This document shows, in pieces, positions 46,119 through 56,439 of a stretch of DNA of 64,000 nucleotides. How positions within the stretch are numbered: position 1 is the first letter of the stretch; every line of letters begins with the position of its first letter. Origin of the DNA: Hyaloraphidium curvatum. Lineage: Eukaryota; Monoblepharomycota; Hyaloraphidiomycetes; Hyaloraphidiales; Hyaloraphidiaceae. The stretch lies in NCBI GenBank assembly GCA_025558095.1, contig JAIVFI010000006.1:372001-436000 (forward strand). Direction: 5' to 3'. The notes under the pieces are model-generated. The model ran no database searches, was not told the DNA's origin, and was given only the letters and a program-made list of their open reading frames with translations. The translations under genes and the position numbers were made by a program.

Positions 46119-46312
46119 ATTTGCGGGGAAGAAAACGGTGTCCACGGGATTTCTTGCAGTCGACCCTGCACACACTCGTTTCACACACAGGTCCCGCTAC
46201 TCGAGCTTGCCGGAGTCGCCGCGTGCGAATTTGCAACCGCTAGAGCACAGTCTCCATCGCAAAAGGCGCGTGGTGCCTCCTGCGTCGCGTCGGGGAACGG
46301 CACGGCCAAAAC

Positions 46313-49300
46313 ATGCTTCTGAGCGGGCCAGAAACCGCGGTTCGGCTCAAGCAGACCGGCAAGCTTGGCCCGGACGAGATTGCTGCTGTACTCGCAATTC
46401 ACCGAACGACGTATTTCCGTTGGATCCGCCGATGTGGGGCTCAGACCGTTCCGGACCATCCCCGCAAGGCCTTCCGCAAGGTGTCCGAGGAAATGGTCCG
46501 GCACGTAGTTGACGAGGCCAAAGCTCGCGTCCGCGTGACGCAAAGGGAGCTCGCTGCTGACCTGGCGGAAAAGTTTGGCGTTTTGGTGTCGCAGCAGCAT
46601 ATCTCGCGGCTGCTGAAGGCCAACAGGGTCACGAGGAAGAAGCTCACCATTAAGAGCGCCGAAGCCCTGAAACAACCCGAGCGGCACCGCATGTTCCACG
46701 AGAGGGTCACTTCCTTTGATGTGGGGCGCCTAGGTGCCTTGGACGAGTCCTCATTCCAACTCAACGATCCGGGGCGCTTCGGCTACTCGGAGAAGGGGAC
46801 TCCCGCCGTCGTATACCTGCCAGGGAACCGGGGCCCCAAGGTGACCCTTTGCCTCGCCATCTCACCCACTCCGCGACCCGGTAATCACACTGGAAACGTG
46901 ATCTCGTACCAGATCTACAGCGGCAACATGAACACCGAGAGGTTCTGTGCTTTTCTCAAGACTATTCGCGCCGGGGCTTGTGGGTCCGAGTCCCTGGGCG
47001 TTATCCTGGACAATGCGGGTTTCCACGGCTCTCCTCTGCGGGCAAGGAAGACCACGGACGGCACGGCAATAATAAAGAACCTCTCAGGCAAGTCGTTCCT
47101 TGCGGTCCAGGCCGTAGCAAAGGCCAACAATCTGAGCCTCATCTACCTGCGACCGAGATCGCCGGAATTTAACCCGACCGAGTACGTGTTTGCCACGATC
47201 AAGAACCTCGTGAGGCGGGACTGCCCCAGGACGGTGCCGGATCTCGTCCGGTCCATCGAGAGGGCCATTCAAATCGTCGGCCACGGCGATCTGATGGCGA
47301 CGTTCCGGCACTGCTTGAAGCTAAGCGAGGCTGAGTTTGTGCGCATCGCGGAATCCGCGTCCGCCGGCAAATGTGTGGCGCGGAAGGTCACACTACAAGG
47401 TCAGATCTCTGCCTTTGCTTCTCCGGCTCCTCAGACGTGCCCTTCCGCGATGGAGGGCGCAGCAGCGACCCAGACCGAAGCAAACGCGGCCGAGCGGCTC
47501 GCTGAAGAGGTGGACTGCCATGACGGTTGCGCATCGGGCATGCAGACCGCGCTGACTCACGACAACGCCCACTCCGAGCAGGCTCGCAACCTCGGCGTCG
47601 CCCACATCAACCCGCACCAAAAGCACACTTTGCTGATCCTGAGGGAAGTTCTCCACGTCGATGGTTCGGCGAGGGAATTCTTTGGGCCGTGGAACGACTT
47701 CACGGACTCCGCTCAAAGGACCGCGGGCTTCGACGCTGCGGACGTCCTCGGGGGCCTCTCCAACCTCGGTGAAGCTCCTTTCGAGTTCATCTGTCAGCGG
47801 GTGGCATCGGGTCGGGGGTACAAGCTGGAGCGCGAGCTTTTCGTCGCGCGCCTCCGGAACATCGTCGCCCGGCGGCGCCGGGTCGCCCCCAGTCTGATCG
47901 GACCAGACGCACCGGCACCCCCCTTTTTCCGCCCCGCGGACGATGGCGCGGATCTGGGACCGCCGTCAGCCCCCGACGTCTCCATCTCCCAGCTGGATAA
48001 CCTCGCCCGCTATGCCGACGTCCCACCGGAACTTAACGTCTCGTTCAAGAAAGCCAGCCGCGCCGCGTTGAAACAGCTGTTTCCGCTCTCAGCCCTTGCA
48101 AACGACACCGTGCTGGACGAGAGGTTCGCCATCCTCCTATCGGGCCTTGTACGAAACGGTCGTGGACCAGAATGGCTACGTGCGCTCGCTGTTTCTCTCT
48201 GGGGACAGCTCGGCCCGGCCGGGAGGGCACGCATGGACAGCTTCGAAACATCCGAGACAGCACGTCGTGCTCTGCATTATGTTCACCAGCCCATTTCGAA
48301 GGTCTGTCGGTTGGAGTACCTCGAACGCGCGGCTTCGACCGAGTCTCTGCCAAGGAACCTTAGGCAGATACTGGAGGAAGCGTGCCGCACGCTGAAGGAC
48401 CAGCAGGGCCGCTCGCTTTTTGATGCGTCGCCCGGCCTGGAGTACTTCCTTGCTTCGCTCTCCCTCCCGCAGCGATGCAAGATAGTCATGGCGGCGCGTT
48501 TGCCGGATAGTGTGGCGAGTCGCAATGCGGAAGGGCGCAAGAGATTCTTCGATTGGGCGGTGTGGAACCCGATGGCGGCCAACGAGGAGGCCCTCGCCAT
48601 CGAGAATCCGGGTTCCGTTCCCGTGCTGGTGTGCAATCTCCTGTCGAGCAGCCCCGCAATCCCAAACTGATTTTTGCCCCGGCAGCTGCTTTCGTTCCCG
48701 GGCCTTTTCCAGATGAGCCCGGGCGTACCTGGACTGGATGCAGAGGGCGATAAGCTGCTGGCAACCCTGTTCCTGAAGGCGGAGCAGCTCGGGTGGGAAC
48801 ACTCTTCCATGGTGACGCTGCGGCTGCTGGAGTCGAGGCCCAAGATGCGCGATTTTACCCTGGACTTGTGCGGTATGCCCGCGCTGGTGCGCGGTAGCAA
48901 CCCCGAAGCACGGCAGGAGGCCGCGCGCACCGCGCTCGACGCCAAGCTCCACTTCCACGCGGAATCCGTTGGACTGCTGGACTTCGGCCGTATCCAGAAG
49001 CGGGATTGTCCGCTCTGTTCCTTCAGTGTGCAGGTGGAAGGCGAAGTCCCGGCGAAGGCTGGGCGGCGGCGCAAGGTCGCGGCGTCGGGGATGGTGGCTG
49101 ACGGAGCTGCGCGGGAGCGTGTCTATGACGCCGAGCTTCGGCTCCTCCACCACGTCAAGGGTGCGCACCTCACCTGCAGAGCGTGCCCGGGGAAGGGACA
49201 TCAGTTCGACCTCGAGAGTGAGTTCCGGCAGCATGTCGAGGAGAACCACCGTGGGGCGTGAGTTGCACCGCGCTTTCCATGCATGCCTGGGACCGATGCG

Positions 49301-52300
49301 AAGCTGACCGCCGCCGGGGACAGTTTGGTCGCCCCAAGGAATCTCACCACGTCGTTCGGCCAGTTCATTGCCAACGCACACTACATTGTCCCGTTCGCGT
49401 CGACAAACCTCAAAGCCAACATTCCTACGGGCCTCGGCGGCTCGTCCTGCCCTTTCTGTTTCGCCGGTGGCGGGAGGCACCGGCAGGAGTGCTCTCCGAA
49501 GCGGCGGTGGGTCGCGCTCAACGGCTTCCTCGCACTTGGCGACCCCCAGCACGAGCGATACAAGACGATGACGGAGCTGGCCGTCGAGTGGTTCCCGGCG
49601 GCCGAGGTGTGCCACCCATGGGCGCGGGGCCCGTACGAGCAAGTCGGGCCCCTCATCACCAAGGCCTGCACCCTCGCCGCCATCTTATTCAAGATCATCT
49701 GGACCAAGATCTTGTTGCAGATCCACAACAAAGAGCTCCCGGACCAAGACGGATCCGTCACGCAGGACATGCTCGCCAGCTTTCCCCCGTCTTACGTCGC
49801 AAAGATTGCCATCCACGCCGTGCTTGGTGCCGGCCAGATGTCCGCCGCTGTTGGAACCCGCCGCGCGGGAAAGCAGAAGTCGGCCGGGCTCGGTGCTGGG
49901 GCGAGATACTCGGGCCATTCGGGGGCGCCAGGAGTGGAGCAGCTTGTGGACGGCGGTCCGGACCTCGGAGCCAACGACGACGATCGAGACGAGGTGCTCG
50001 AGGACGTTGACTTCGAGGACGATGACGACGCGATGGCCGAGGACCAGGCCGGCGCCAAGATCTTGGCCGACTTCTTGCACGGCGAGCTGGATCAGATTGA
50101 GGACGAGGACTTGGTTACGGCTGAGGACACCCCCGATCTCTCGCAGGTTGCTGATCAGGGCGCACCGTCCGTTCTCACCGTCGCGGAGCACAACGCAGCG
50201 GCAAAGCTTGTCCGCAAGGCGGCCGTTGCTGCGTTTGCAGAGGCGCGGGAACTTGTGGGCGAGACGTACGACAAGCTCAGGCCGCTTTTCGTGCAGGGAC
50301 CTTTGCTCCGCTATGCCGAGCAGGTCGCTTTCAACCGAGCTCGAAGCGTGCCGCAGCGGCTGCTGACTGCGCTCAAGGTTCTCATCCGTCGCTTCCTACG
50401 CGGGGAGGTGAACGCGGGCGTCGGCCGGAGGCGGATTGGCCCGATCCTCAGCTACGCTCTGGCAAAGCTCGGATATGGGGACGACGACTTCTCCAATTTC
50501 CCGTTCGAAAGCGCATTTGGCTGTGGTCTCGCCGAGGCCACGGAGCTCAGGGTCGGGCTGGGGAGGCTCCTCCGGCCGTTCAGAGGCTTGCAGCTGAACC
50601 GGATCGTTGACCTCCGGGATTCAAAACAGAAGCCGCCGGTGCCGGCAACCGTTTCGCAGCGGAGGGTTATCGCTCGGGTCCTGCAGGACAAGCAGGCGGG
50701 CAACCCCGTGGCGGCCGCGGTGCGAACCGTGAACCTGCCGAAGGGCAAGCCGCGCGGAAAGGTCGACGCGGAAACGGAGGCGGTGCGCAGCTACCTCCAG
50801 AACATTTGGGAGACGCTGCCGCGGGCCTCACCTGCGGAGAAGGCTGACTTGCGAAAGGTGGAGCTGCAGGAGCTGAGGGACTGGGTGGTTGCAAACCGTC
50901 TACAGCTTCGGAGCATCCCCTTCCGCTACCCGGCCGTGACCACGGCAACGATTCGGTCGACAGAGCAGAAACCCAAGTTCTGGGTCCCCGAGCACGCCGA
51001 GGACATGAACGAGGCGGCGGCGGCGGCATTGGTGGGGCAGAACCGGCCCCACTGGGAAAGCGAGAAGCTTCTGGTGGCGCGGATGAGCGAGTATGACCTC
51101 GACAAGTGTCGTTCATCCACGAACCCCGCGGACGAAGCCTTCGGCTTCCAGATGTGCTTCATCGCCCTGCACGAGCTCGAAAAGCAGGACGAGGCGCTGA
51201 AGAAGAGGGCCGCGTCCGCGGCTGCTGCACTGCCGGAACCTGGAACGGCGCGGAGGACGAGCACCGCCAGGGACCCCGATTCAACCCCAACTTTCCCAAC
51301 CATTTCAACTGCTCCGGTCAAGGACAGGGAGGCTTCGAACAAGACCAGGAGGGCCCGCAACACGTGGCGGCCGCACCGCGTCGAGAAGCGGCATTACAGC
51401 AAGAATGGCTCCCCGAAGCGATGGCACGGGTTCGTCGTGAGCTTCCGTAAGCGCCGACCGCAGCCGGGGCCCGAGGGACTCGCCAAGAAGGAGACCATGG
51501 AGACGAAGCGGCGGGAGCGCAAGGCGGCCGCCGCCGCCGCGATGGCGGGGCTTGGCGCCGCCCAGACCGGCAAGGAAAAGGCAGCCTCGTGGGCGCGGCG
51601 GAAGCTTCGGGCTGCGGTCGCCGAAATCAGCTTGTCCCCCGTGACCGTCTACATCTCGGCCTCGGATCTGCCCGAGTTTTTGTCCAAGCTGGGCGTGGAG
51701 GTCGCGCCTGGCATCGACACCTCGCGCGTTGACTCGGACTACCTATTCGGCCACCTGCTCAACGGCGGCAACCAACTCGTCAACGAGGACCGGCTCTTCC
51801 GCCTCCGTCAGCAGGGCAAAGTCTCGGCCAGGGGCCATGCCGCCGCCACGCAGCCCATCTATCGTCGCACCGCGGACGTTCTGAGGTACTCCGGCGTCCG
51901 GGGCATCTATCATTGCGGCAGCACCCTGGGCATTCTTAACGAAGAAGTCTCCTTCGTGGAAAAGGTCTCGTTCCAGCAGTCGCAGCAGCAGGAGCGGCAA
52001 AACACGACACAGGACGTCGAGCCGCCAAAGCGCGCAGCGCATTCGCCAGCAGCCGCGCCGGCTCCTCCTGTTCAAACTCGGCCCACCGTCTCCGTTCCCG
52101 CCGCAGCTCATGTGCCCGCCGGTCTTGCTGCTTTCGAAGTGGATGTTTCGTTCCCTCGCGATGTTCCGATGGATCCCTACCCGCCGCTCTACACCGGTCC
52201 ATGGCTGCCAAACGGCGATCCGGACCCGCCGTGCGACATGGCTGTCTTCGATGGTGGGCATTTTGCTCAGTGACGCACGGGTTCGGAGGCTGATCGGATC

Positions 52301-54685
52301 CTCACTTTTCCAGGCCAGAATCGGATTTGGCATGGGGGCATGGTCTACTACCTGCAGGCGACGGCCCAAGGGGACGAATCGGTCCCGATGGATTGGGAGC
52401 CCTCTTATTGTGCCAGCAGCAACCTTAACTTCACCACCATGCCTTCCGAGCCTCCGGCGGACTGCGGCATCCCCGCCGCGGTCCCGCCGGAACCCCCGCC
52501 CTTTTTCTCCTTCGTCGAACCACCAGCCTCGACTTCTCTCCCTGCCTCCATTCCCCCGGAACCGCCCCCGCATTGGGTGCACGACCCGTGCTCGTGCTGT
52601 CAAGATGCCGCCTGCAAGGCCGTGGACTGTGCGCCCAACGTGTTCGCGCCCCTGAGCTCGGGGCACAACGACCCTCCCTGCGCGACTGTCTCGCCCGGTG
52701 ACTCGGTGCCCGAGACTTCTGTGCATCCATGCGCGGCCCTTCCTTTCCCCGACTTCTCGCCGCCACTTCCTTCCCCCTTCCTTTCTTGCTTCCCTCCCGA
52801 AGTCGTCGTTTGCGCGGTCGAACCGTCGCCGCCGACGGTAACGGTCGAGGGCAAGTTCGCTGCCCCCGTACCTCCTCAGCTGGCCCCGACCCCGGTTCCG
52901 CTCCCGCCGCGTTCTGCCGAGCCGTTGCCGCGGCCCCCGGTCGACTTCAAGACTGGCATTCCCGTCTACTACCTCAGCCGCCCTGACCATGTGTCCGTGC
53001 TGGCACCCAATCTCCTGCACATGCCGACGCAGGCGGAAATGTTCGAGCGGGCCGAGCGCGGCGAGCCAGTGGAGGGCTGGGTCGTCGACGTGGATCCGAA
53101 TCGCTGGTTTCTGGCTGTTGCCAACCGCCGCGTCGACGTGCGGCTCGTTGCCAAGAGCCTGAACCCCGGGCCGAACGGACGCTACGACTTCGCCAACAGT
53201 CATCTGCCGGGGACAACGGAGCGCATCACCGTGACCAATGCCGACGGCACCAAGTCGCACTACGTGCCGAAGCGGGCGAACCCGTCCAAGGCCGACGGTT
53301 CCGTCAGCTTCGGGAGGATCGTCGGCTTCCACCTAGAGCACTCCTGCTCCGATACTAAGCGGATCGCAAGGTCTTTCGGTCCGTCGCCGCCTGCCGCTGG
53401 AGCGTGCAGACACCACCCGCTCTGGGAGCCCAAGATCTCGGAGTTCAAGCCGCCGGCGCCCGATTCGCGCCCCAACGACGCTGCAAAGGCGGAGAAGCAC
53501 GCTCGGCGCAACGTCGAACTGTTCCCGACCCCTGGCGGCTGCACGGACGAGTTTGGTGCCAAGCTGTGGGGCGAGGTCGCTGGTGCCGGCCGTGCGGGGA
53601 CCCCGGCGCTGCCGGAGCTCATCCTCGGTGTTCCGGCCAAGCTCGACCGCCGCCTGTGCGGCTACGACAAGGCGGCCGCGCGTCTGAATGCCACCAAGCG
53701 GACCACCATGCTGGACGTCAACGATTGCGAGGGCAACCCTGTGCAGAAGTCTCTCCACGATTTCGAGCGCGACCTGCCCTCTCAACGCACAACGAACAGT
53801 GCAGCCTTCTCGGACTACACGAGGGCGCTGCTGCCACAACTCGACCGCATCCTGGACGTCTACTGTTCCGGAGAACGGAGGTGGGCAAGCCAATCCCTGT
53901 GGCAACGACTTCGCTCACGCATCCTGCAGCCTGGATCGTGTGCGCACGATTCGCCGGCGCCGCGAGGTCCTCAGCTGGATCTGTCGCGACATGTGTCGCA
54001 ACCCGTATTCGGGCAAGTACGATCCACAGACGACCATCGCATACGGCGCCGCGCGATTCGGCCATGCGAGCAAGGGCGGCCCGGCCTCCCGGATCGTTCG
54101 CTTCAGGGCGGAGCTGGCCAAGGCCGGGATCATGGTCTTGGTCAACGAGTACCTCACGTCCCAAATGTGCAGCTGGTGCGGCAGCCGCCGTGATCATCCG
54201 ACTCGCCTGACGTCCTTTCCAGCTGCAAGACCACCTATGTCGTCGGAATCCGGAACCCCGGCTCCAAGGGCGAGGTGCGCGGGGTGAAATACTGTCCCCT
54301 CTGCCGCCGCTTCTGGATGCGCGACGTGAACAGTGTGCACTCCATGGAGCACCTCTTCTGGTTCGGCCTCATCACCGGAGGGGAGCGCCCCTGGCCGTTC
54401 AGGCCGGACACCAGGAAGCCGAAGCCGCAGCCCAAGCTCCGAGCTGGGACTGGTGCAGCGCCGCGCAAGTCCGCGGGTGAGCGCGCTCGCATTCGCGACG
54501 GTCATCCCGAGCGTCATCCCGAGCTGATCCGGGAGCTCCAGGTGCCGCCACAGGCCGCAAGCGTACGGCCGCAAGCGCCGCGAATGGGTCGGTCAAGAAG
54601 CTCAAGCCGGCAAGCTGACCTGGCCGCGGAAACAGTTACAAGTTGGCGTGCCATGCACCGCGTGGGCGCCATTGCATTTGCTTGA
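46313..54685 (+). CDS. Fusion of IS630/Tc1-type DDE transposase with a Fanzor (TnpB-like) RNA-guided nuclease
   Basis: Six exons splice into one 2697-residue frame: 46313-48628, 48686-49257, 49324-52253, 52314-53880, 53930-54175 and 54223-54685. Introns are 57, 66, 60, 49 and 47 nt, all GT...AG with matching phases. Residues 1-345 form a transposase: helix-turn-helix (IAAVLAIHRTTYFRWIRR), then catalytic D144 (GALDESSFQ), D233 (VILDNAGFHGS) and E290 (RSPEFNPTEYVFATIKN). The middle is unrecognised but has Cys/His pairs (CPLC...CRAC...H) near residues 870-960 and a Pro-rich linker. The C-terminus is Fanzor-like: RuvC-I D2200 (GWVVDVDPNRWFLAVA), TIAYGAARFGHASKGG, the relocated glutamate E2535 in LVNEYLTSQMC, a CxxC...CPLC zinc finger, and RuvC-III D2578 (MRDVNSV). 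Whether one polypeptide is made, or two from separate transcripts, is untested. Confidence 0.8.
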
Positions 54686-54742
54686 TCGAGGTGGAGTCCG
54701 TCAGGGACCGCCTTTTATTCGCAGGCTCGATGATGAACATTG

Positions 54743-54786
54743 CTGCTAGGCCGCAAAGGATTGCGGCACAGTGGGCACAGTAGCAG
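54743..54786 (+). ncRNA. Candidate Fanzor guide-RNA scaffold hairpin
   Basis: 58 bp after the Fanzor stop codon lies a nested inverted repeat: outer arms CTGCTA (54743-54748) and TAGCAG (54781-54786), and a perfect inner hairpin CCGCAA-AGGA-TTGCGG (54751-54766). Fanzor and TnpB guide RNAs are normally encoded at the 3' end of the nuclease gene and extend to the element end. The position fits, but short hairpins arise by chance in GC-rich DNA and no expression evidence is available. Confidence 0.25.
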
Positions 54787-54834
54787 TTTCTGAGAGTGTA
54801 GCTAACAGCAGCCTCGTGAGCAACATTCGACGCG

Positions 54835-56439
54835 ATGGACCCCGGCTACGAGGTCCGTGATCTTGGGGGCGTGCTGGGGCGCGCGATGTTCGCGACCAGG
54901 CCGTTCGCGGTCGGCCAGCTCATCTTCCGGGAGGCACCGCTCCTCGTTGTGCCCCGGTTCCGGGATGGCTCCCTCGATGTCCCACCTAAGCTGGCCAAGA
55001 TCGTGTCGGCGGTGGCGGCTATGAATTCGGACGTCGATCTCCCCGTCGAGCTCACGGTCAACATCCTGGTCTTGGTCGCGAGGCGCTCCGCCGAGCCGGA
55101 CGCGCAAGCCTTCCTCACAACACTCGACGATTTCGCGAGACCAGGGAAGAACCAAGCGCCGGAGTCGTGGCTGAACCCGATCACGGATCTCGTGGCCTCC
55201 AAGTGCAAGTCGTTCGTGCCCGAGATGTTCGCCGCGCTTTCCGAGCGCCAAATTTCGGACTGTCTGCTCAGTTGTGCGACCAACGCCCACTCGTTTGAGA
55301 CCGACGAGGGCCCTTACGTCGGGCTCTACAGCATGGGCTCTAAGCTTGCCCACAGCTGCGTCCCGAACACATTGCAGGTGTTTGAAGCAAACGACATCCT
55401 GCACTACGCTCTTCGGAGCATCTCGCCCGGAGACATGATTGCGATCAACTATGGCTTTGCCGAGGACATTCGTTCCGTGTTTCCCACGCCGCTTCGGCGT
55501 GCGCGCCTTTCGGTCTCCAAGTTCTTTCACTGCGAGTGCCTTCGGTGCACCGCCCCCGATACCAACCGGATGTTCCGTTGTCCGAAGTGCGACGAAGCTG
55601 CGGTCGCACAGTGGGACTTCGCTGAGGAGGAGGAATCTGCCGAGCAGGAGGCGGCAATTGACTCGACATCTGGGTCGGCGGAGCAGGAAACGGAAACCGC
55701 TGATCCTGCAACCTCTGTCGCGCGCTCCCAATCGCCGGGTTCTACAGACGTGGCTCAAGGAGGGAACAGTGAATCATTAGCTACGGACGGATCGTCTGGC
55801 GCGCCAGAGACTGCCGCACAAACAGCACCGGATGCCAGGCACCCGTACCGCTGCGAGAAGTGTGCCGCTGTTTTCGCGCCCGAAGCCATGCCGCTCGCCG
55901 AGGAGCAAGAGTTGGCGGAGAGCTTGGCTCAAGTGTCTGATCTCCTGATGCAACCTTCGACCGACAGGGAGCAGTTGTACCACGCCATCGATGCAACATG
56001 CAAGACAGCACATGCGAAGCTGGGAGGCGAACACTGGGTGTCAGGTTGGAGCCTACTTTTGCTACTGAGCGACACCCGAGGTCGCCCAGTCAAGGGCAGA
56101 GCTCGGGCAACCGACGCCGCTTACAAAGCCAGGCGCAAAGAGCTGGCGCGCCAGTGGTTCGGTTGGGCAGCGCGACACGTTTCGCCGTACTTTCCCCACT
56201 ACTTTGCAAGGATGCTGTGCAGCGAAATCTCGGACGTCCTGGACGAAGCCTGCTGGCGCGAGGTTGTCGCGAGCGTGAACGACGCCGAGACATATCTCGA
56301 GCCGCAATTCCTCGGGCCCGTTTTCTCCGCGGAGCGACGGGAAGCCATCAAGGCAAAACTGGCAACGGCCCGGGCAGCAAATCAGGCTGCGTCGTCGCCG
56401 ACCCGGGCGAGTGCCAAGAACGAAAGGAAGAGGAGATAG
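54835..56439 (+). CDS. SET-domain protein (SMYD/SET5-like putative methyltransferase)
   Basis: This is a single-exon, 534-residue protein. The start MDPGYEVRDLGGVLGRAMFA leads straight into the SET N-terminal part (GRAMFATRPFAVGQLIFREA). The split SET domain closes with SKLAHSCVPNTLQVFEANDI (NH-type motif, here AHSCVPN), ISPGDMIAINYGFAED and a post-SET cysteine cluster (FFHCECLRC). Next is a CxxC pair (RCPKCDEAAVAQWDF), an acidic Ser/Glu linker and a second CxxC (RCEKCAAVFAPEAM), so a zinc site may be split across the linker. The C-terminus is helical, as in SMYD/SET5 proteins. A canonical MYND finger was not seen. Confidence 0.82.
   Translation: MDPGYEVRDLGGVLGRAMFATRPFAVGQLIFREAPLLVVPRFRDGSLDVPPKLAKIVSAVAAMNSDVDLPVELTVNILVLVARRSAEPDAQAFLTTLDDFARPGKNQAPESWLNPITDLVASKCKSFVPEMFAALSERQISDCLLSCATNAHSFETDEGPYVGLYSMGSKLAHSCVPNTLQVFEANDILHYALRSISPGDMIAINYGFAEDIRSVFPTPLRRARLSVSKFFHCECLRCTAPDTNRMFRCPKCDEAAVAQWDFAEEEESAEQEAAIDSTSGSAEQETETADPATSVARSQSPGSTDVAQGGNSESLATDGSSGAPETAAQTAPDARHPYRCEKCAAVFAPEAMPLAEEQELAESLAQVSDLLMQPSTDREQLYHAIDATCKTAHAKLGGEHWVSGWSLLLLLSDTRGRPVKGRARATDAAYKARRKELARQWFGWAARHVSPYFPHYFARMLCSEISDVLDEACWREVVASVNDAETYLEPQFLGPVFSAERREAIKAKLATARAANQAASSPTRASAKNERKRR

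Follow-up and report, generated by a model that had tools for sequence, protein, structure and literature searches.

The window analysed here, a 64,000-nt stretch of the Hyaloraphidium curvatum genome (contig JAIVFI010000006.1, positions 372,001–436,000; C6:372001-436000 in the 31.9-Mb, 55-contig assembly that we searched), carries a transposon, family A, with an unusual cargo. We read it as probably a recently active IS630/Tc1-mariner-type element whose single gene encodes a protein of about 2,700 residues, made up of a helix-turn-helix (HTH)–DDE transposase, a zinc-finger-like middle and a Fanzor1-like RuvC nuclease, the last proposed to recut sites that the element has left. This reading draws on the anatomy of the element, the open frame, the invariant catalytic residues, the conservation between two families, the young copies and a conserved 3′ non-coding block. 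An original prediction, made from the letters of the window, had described a Fanzor module at 52314–54685. A Fanzor-like domain does lie there, but it is not free-standing: it forms exons 4–6 of the six exons of a transposase fusion, within a unit that spans 46178–54802 (Table 1).

The spliced family A open reading frame (ORF) runs from an ATG at 46313 to a stop codon at 54683–54685 and comprises 2,697 codons. That of family B, which has five copies in the same genome (L044), is open throughout its 2,631 codons in a model with seven introns, five of them matching those of A. Both ORFs are ordered as DDE transposase, zinc-finger-like middle and Fanzor-like nuclease, and two further families, C and D (L045 and L046), have the same domains in the same order, the Fanzor part lying about 7.7 kb downstream of the transposase and in the same orientation in partly spliced models. 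All five introns of A and their counterparts in B are of the GT–AG type. Intron phases agree between A and B, four of the five introns occupy the same alignment column and the second is at most three columns off; in four of the five pairs, the lengths differ modulo 3. Further afield, the apparent counterpart of intron 4 in family D is a GC–AG intron, and the site of intron 5 is open and intronless in both C and D.

Intron ends were picked by hand to hold the frame open and to resemble the other family. As a check, all frame-open GT–AG pairs of 30–95 nt near each junction were scored by the match of the resulting peptide to the other family; against 3–18 candidates per junction, our ends came first 9 times out of 10 and were second of 6 for B intron 3, a ranking that is partly circular because its yardstick is the other family's model. 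Intron 1, which separates the transposase from everything downstream, lies at the same codon in A and B, and its excision preserves the frame in both although the two introns differ in length by two bases; with both frames open once it is excised, chance continuity is hard to credit. Family A appears, from these alignments, to encode the transposase and the Fanzor-like nuclease as one ORF.

Table 1. Features of the family A transposon in the window (coordinates in the 64,000-nt stretch; rank, place of the chosen intron ends among the candidate pairs)
Feature	Position	Strand	Basis and comparison
Family A transposon, whole unit, 8,625 bp	46178..54802	+	Flank divergence among ten copies and end-pattern searches
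Left terminal inverted repeat, 24 bp, GTTTCACACACAGGTCCCGCTACT	46178..46201	+	Imperfect pairing with right end, judged by eye
Exon 1: HTH, IS630-type DDE transposase, conserved extension	46313..48628	+	Pfam DDE_3; D-D-E by motif
Intron 1, 57 nt, phase 0, in-frame TGA inside; excision joins transposase to downstream ORF	48629..48685	+	Same alignment column and phase in B (59 nt); rank 1 in A and B
Exon 2: two C2H2-like pairs (~49007–49168, ~49175–49249)	48686..49257	+	Motif; pairs also in B
Intron 2, 66 nt, phase 2	49258..49323	+	B: same phase, at most 3 alignment columns away, 54 nt; rank 1 in A and B
Exon 3: CCHC-like knuckle (~49448–49492), acidic stretch	49324..52253	+	Motif
Intron 3, 60 nt, phase 1	52254..52313	+	52 nt in B; rank 1 in A, rank 2 of 6 in B
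Exon 4: proline-rich linker, RuvC-I candidate DPNR (D2200), long insert	52314..53880	+	Motif, four-family alignment
Intron 4, 49 nt, phase 2	53881..53929	+	60 nt in B; rank 1 in A and B; apparently same place in C and D, by eye
Exon 5: IAYGAARFG, RuvC-II E2535, start of first CxxC	53930..54175	+	Motif, alignment
Intron 5, 47 nt, phase 2	54176..54222	+	58 nt in B; rank 1 in A and B
Exon 6: remaining C4 zinc finger, RuvC-III RD (D2578), basic tail, stop	54223..54685	+	PF07282, alignment
37-nt block, 34/37 identical in B; possible hairpin then T-run; candidate omega-RNA/reRNA scaffold	54680..54716	+	blastn E 7e-10 (small search)
Right terminal inverted repeat, 24 bp, reverse complement GCTACACTCTCAGAAACTGCTACT	54779..54802	-	End-pattern search, copy flanks

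In the C-terminal part, the RuvC-I aspartate, the IAYGAARFG string, the glutamate, the CxxC...CxxC finger and the RuvC-III aspartate listed in the original prediction are all present in the predicted order, and the residue numbers given there fit the spliced ORF exactly (D2200, 53093–53095; E2535, 54147–54149; D2578, 54323–54325). The three introns it had placed in this region (introns 3–5) each run from GT to AG and restore the frame, and the glutamate, which it had assigned to the rearranged position of Fanzor proteins, is found as E-x6-CxxC in all four families. The hidden Markov model search that it called for places the spliced C terminus of A above the cut-off of PF07282, the TnpB-type zinc ribbon (28.0 bits, cut-off 26.3), compared with 20.0 bits for the best unspliced frame; C (C-terminal piece, 31.2 bits) and D (32.1 bits) pass as well. 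B, C and D are 56, 32 and 28% identical to A, and D54, E389, C396, C399, C422, C425, R431 and D432 (alignment numbering) are invariant in all four families. D2200 stands as a candidate, assigned as the RuvC-I residue by motif and invariance. We consider the domain Fanzor1-like, divergent and probably an RNA-guided DNA cutter. Its carrier also points to Fanzor1 over Fanzor2, as the transposase in the same ORF is of the DDE_3 type and not of IS607.

The A/B and C/D profiles align with each other in hhalign at E 9.7e-39 over 384 columns, and a DPG-type Fanzor1-like ORF from the same genome, identified by motif only and with NRF in place of RD, gives an alignment of 159 columns with the profile (E 1.2e-9). 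Searched against the PDB, the four-family profile matched 16 sequences at E ≤ 10, the best of them LaTranC (4.6e-4) and the TnpB-like L79 (5.9e-4) over the zinc-finger part only; the Guillardia theta Fanzor1 matched weakly (E 0.063), also in the zinc-finger part only, and TnpB entries followed at E 0.27–0.43, interspersed with unrelated proteins. Bacterial TnpB contamination was considered and is ruled out by the introns common to the families, the transposase in the same ORF and the intron-bearing relatives elsewhere in the assembly.

The host element is, by its sequence, of the IS630/Tc1-mariner type, because exon 1 holds DDE_3 with a D-D-E triad and the ends of the element are inverted repeats. 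The Pfam DDE_3 match has an E-value of 5.8e-15; by motif, the triad of A is D144 (46742), D233 (47009) and E290 (47180), with 56 residues between D233 and E290, and B has the triad too. A protein-database search with the transposase, run in the same way as those described below for the Fanzor domains, returned one match, of 457 amino acids and 46% identity. Imperfect 24-bp inverted repeats, paired by eye, are present in both A and B; a search for terminal inverted repeats at 18 of 24 positions returned none for families C and D. The middle region is harder to place. Exon 2 has no Pfam match and its C2H2-like pairs are known by motif alone, and the frame of exon 3 gives no Pfam match at E ≤ 1. 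Comparing the A/B middle with the C/D middle in hhalign gave nothing significant (best E 0.11; one collinear stretch at E 0.018), so the middle has either diverged or been replaced. An OTU-protease-like stretch occurs in family D (L046, reverse-strand frame of 1,374 amino acids, residues 619–789; Pfam E 0.03, 15.2 bits, below the cut-off of 23.3); its counterpart in family C is degenerate by eye.

Family A has probably been active recently and its copies are young: ten copies have 46178–54802 in common between unrelated flanks, and their blast pieces are 99.6–99.9% identical to the window, with one short piece at 100%. The nine other copies were viewed over about 46175–48865 and 52160–54804. 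Between A and B, the ratio of non-synonymous to synonymous substitution rates (dN/dS) is 0.147 in the Fanzor core (149 codons) and 0.174 in the DDE part of the transposase (345 codons), compared with 0.344 in the remaining Fanzor domain and 0.24–0.50 in five other stretches; these values are rough because dS is 1.3–2.9, near saturation. Amino-acid identity likewise peaks at residues 2501–2600 (75%), with 28–67% in the other 100-residue windows. Between the two families, then, conservation of the Fanzor core equals or exceeds that of the transposase.

Downstream of the coding region, the 37-nt block of Table 1 is a candidate for a guide RNA. It is far better conserved between A and B than the coding DNA near it, which is only 73% identical, and its 18-nt core has 15 exact sites in the genome, one in each of the A and B copies (15/15), and three more sites with two mismatches. 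A coding explanation for the block is ruled out: A and B differ by one base in length inside it and identity resumes beyond, so no reading frame is conserved. The scaffold of SpuFz1 spans the stop codon to the 3′ inverted repeat (PMC10432273), and the position of the block fits that arrangement. A search of Rfam over 54000–55200 returned no match at E ≤ 1.

From the sequence we infer that the transcript is spliced and translated into a single chain, and that the nuclease takes an RNA guide, cuts DNA and helps the element to gain copies; the likeliest scheme that would join these steps is as follows. The transposase part would excise the element through its 24-bp inverted repeats and insert it at TA-like sites. 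The Fanzor part would bind a short RNA from the right end (candidate scaffold 54680–54802) whose 3′ end reads into the host flank; so guided, it could recut the emptied donor site, and repair from the sister or homologous chromosome would then restore the element, raising its copy number. A recutting-then-repair model of this kind has been proposed for TnpB, as outlined in the discussion of one report (PMC10432273).

The flanks of the 15 A and B copies hint at a preferred orientation. In 11 of 15, an ATG within 60 nt of the right end opens a frame of at least 65 codons, compared with 21.7% of control positions (binomial p 2.8e-5); measured outward from the left end, the count is 4 of 15 (p 0.41), and a stricter minimum of 300 codons leaves 5 of 15 on the right, where the control gives 2.8%, and none of 15 on the left. 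The distance and thresholds were set after the flanks had been viewed, and the control consists of random window positions rather than intergenic ones. Nine of the flank ORFs were compared with Pfam: two exceed the cut-off (SET from residue 15, MscL from residue 180), one has a sub-threshold Myb match at residue 5, one a doubtful sub-threshold match and five none. By these measures, insertions sit directly upstream of likely start codons with the right end facing the gene. The window copy itself lies about 32 nt upstream of the SET-domain gene; close by on the reverse strand is a gene that we take to be eIF3h-like.

A bolder version of the proposal, in which transposase and Fanzor form one covalent machine that couples excision with RNA-guided recutting and the element always enters in one orientation, a short way ahead of the start codons of host genes, we put forward tentatively, as somewhat doubtful. 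If it were true, such insertion would put the element's gene, which has a leader of only 135 nt, under a host promoter, and the guide would begin with bases from the 5′ region of a host gene.

The left ends of the copies vary. Indels start at about positions 12–18 in 4 of 10 A copies and at about 31–33 in 3 of 5 B copies, two of which have one deletion in common; these placements are ambiguous by a few bases. The right ends vary far less, with 9 of 10 A copies and all five B copies alike. Four indel starts falling within six bases of a 135-nt leader would have a chance of 3e-4 if uniformly placed, a figure chosen post hoc and including one event that is a C added to a run of C. SpuFz1 and GtFz1 are described as cutting 14–21 bases from the target-adjacent motif (PMC10432273), a distance that makes self-cutting by the Fanzor part near the left end a bare possibility.

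Several observations weigh against the favoured reading. The flanking dinucleotides make an imperfect target-site duplication in both families (A: TC in 6 of 10 and TA in 4 of 10 on the left, TA in 9 of 10 on the right; B: TA in 3 of 5 on the left, CA in 5 of 5 on the right); the window copy is flanked by TC (46176–46177) and TA (54803–54804). The right dinucleotide is nearly constant within each family and the left one variable, unlike a clean TA duplication. Some A copies are damaged, with one premature stop, a 171-nt gap in a reverse-strand copy on C7 and the loss of about 140 nt at the left end of the copy on C35. Selection is not visible within family A, whose ten copies differ from the window over the viewed coding stretches by 14 synonymous, 21 non-synonymous and 1 stop variant (7, 5 and 1 in the Fanzor domain; 2, 6 and 0 in the DDE part). 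As for the guide-RNA candidate, the folding energy of its hairpin is matched by many shuffled sequences (z -1.63 and -0.61), and the stem is invariant and so carries no covariation signal.

Other points concern the identity of the nuclease. RuvC-I is DPNR in all four families, and 334, 321, 314 and 320 residues separate D from E in A, B, C and D. According to the literature, Fanzor RuvC-I is 'near exclusively DPG', with the glutamate at an alternative position (PMC10711439), and the Fanzor motif is D-X(125,275)-[TS]-[TS]-X-X-C4-X(5,50)-RD (PMC3627910); the order of that motif and its TS/SS-x-x-C are present here, and the D-to-E spacing exceeds the limit of 275. The earlier identification as a Fanzor is supported, with reservations: by sequence the domain belongs with Fanzor and TnpB and is nearest to Fanzor, but its RuvC-I DPN is atypical and its D–E spacing falls outside the published windows, and so we label it Fanzor1-like and divergent rather than a strict member. 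No known Fanzor matches the RuvC-I region statistically, and when five sequences were aligned, the Fanzor1-like ORF from the same genome had its DPG out of register with DPN; with this mismatch and its NRF, that ORF does not confirm D2200. Protein searches with the Fanzor domains of A and of D, covering the 8,000 candidates that shared most words within a length window, returned nothing at E ≤ 0.01, a PDB search with the single sequence of the domain returned none, and one viral scan gave 81 pattern matches, none of them confirmed.

Such silence in the database and single-sequence searches would be expected if the C-terminal part were a chance string of motifs or a domain of some other RuvC-like or zinc-ribbon family. 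We consider this very improbable, given the Pfam score above cut-off and the profile matches to LaTranC, L79 and, more weakly, TnpB; a chance string in particular is ruled out by PF07282, the invariance across four families and the two hhalign alignments (E 1.2e-9 and 9.7e-39). A subtler alternative keeps the RuvC fold but not its cutting, the domain binding DNA, with or without an RNA guide, so as to direct the transposase. DPN in place of DPG, the long insert between RuvC-I and RuvC-II and the physical fusion with a transposase would all suit such a role, which nevertheless strikes us as improbable: none of the three acidic residues or four cysteines varies among the four families, no other part is as well conserved between A and B as the catalytic core, and SpuFz1 coordinates metal through E541, D383, N385 and D606 (PMC10432273), its D383 and N385 offering a precedent for the D-x-N found here.

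The remaining question is whether one chain is made or two. Transposase and Fanzor could be produced as separate proteins by retention of intron 1, by an internal start or by cleavage of the chain, which we judge unlikely. Retention would yield a 785-residue transposase ending 13 codons into the intron, and the stop codon inside intron 1, which gives the transposase alone whenever the intron is kept, counts against the favoured single product. The tails that retention would add in A and B, VCNLLSSSPAIPN and VSNVLASSSSILG, are both 13 codons long and identical at 6 of 13 positions (window 48629–48667; L044 3024–3062). The similarity of these peptides suggests a possible transposase-only isoform, and such an isoform made by intron retention has a precedent in P elements. 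Also in favour of two products are the sub-threshold OTU-protease-like stretch between transposase and Fanzor in family D and the known Mariner elements, which carry their transposase and Fanzor1 as separate proteins (PMC3627910). Against two products stand the shared codon position of intron 1 and the frame kept on its excision despite the two-base difference in length, and the 57 nt between the two coding parts leave scant room for a promoter.

Beyond these families, the assembly holds other elements of related kinds. L065, L066 and further places harbour Fanzor1-like ORFs of the DPG type, 666–1,230 codons long, which make up a multi-copy family of their own; the two that were inspected have cysteine-rich N-terminal parts. 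L002 (G000:C5:334526-337672) has another Fanzor-like frame, apparently interrupted by an intron, with VDEYLSSQRC and a zinc finger of its own. The family A copy on C15 (right flank L056) adjoins another IS630-type transposase (G000:C15:543627-545096).

Fanzor1 proteins are already known from Tc/mariner elements, PGv-1 and PUl-1 (Bao and Jurka 2013, PMC3627910). These resemble family A in combining a Mariner-type transposase with Fanzor1 in one element that has inverted repeats and TA-type sites, and PGv-1 has its transposase at the 5′ end and Fanzor as the third protein. In PGv-1, however, the transposase, a GIY-YIG endonuclease and Fanzor1 are separate, whereas family A has one spliced ORF with a long middle without known kin. 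SpuFz1 and GtFz1, biochemically shown to be Fanzor1 nucleases (Saito et al. 2023, PMC10432273), likewise have the D, E and D residues in a RuvC domain at the C terminus; the metal contacts D383 and N385 of SpuFz1 would match the D-x-N of family A, and the guide RNA derives from the inverted repeat and 3′ end, to which the candidate block would correspond. By contrast, the SpuFz1 locus measures about 2.1 kb and holds a single ORF, no transposase having been found within its inverted repeats, and its D-to-E distance is 158 positions (383 to 541), compared with 335 in family A. Fanzor2 and TnpB have the zinc ribbon in common with family A, and L79 also has a NEYLT[T/S] string with E-x6-C, but they are compact proteins of IS607 or IS200/605 whereas family A bears introns and sits in a DDE element. 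With IS630–Tc1–mariner transposases (DDE_3), family A has HTH and DDE domains, inverted repeats and TA-like targets in common; it differs in its 56 residues from second D to E and in a C-terminal extension of more than 2,300 residues that includes the nuclease.

The pairing of transposase and Fanzor is thus known for neighbouring proteins, and the single fused ORF appears to be the new part. No such fusion came up in the literature searched, including the accessible portions of PMC3627910, PMC10711439, PMC10432273, PMC11423790 and PMC12633428, though it may be in print elsewhere. The role of Fanzors for their transposons is stated to be unknown in PMC10432273; with a nuclease in the transposase's frame, a conserved core and ten near-identical copies, family A makes the idea of recutting the empty site testable in one natural element. 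A natural transposase–nuclease fusion would be of interest, too, to designers of engineered ones, and it would set family A apart from PGv-1, with its separate proteins, and from SpuFz1, with its single-ORF locus.

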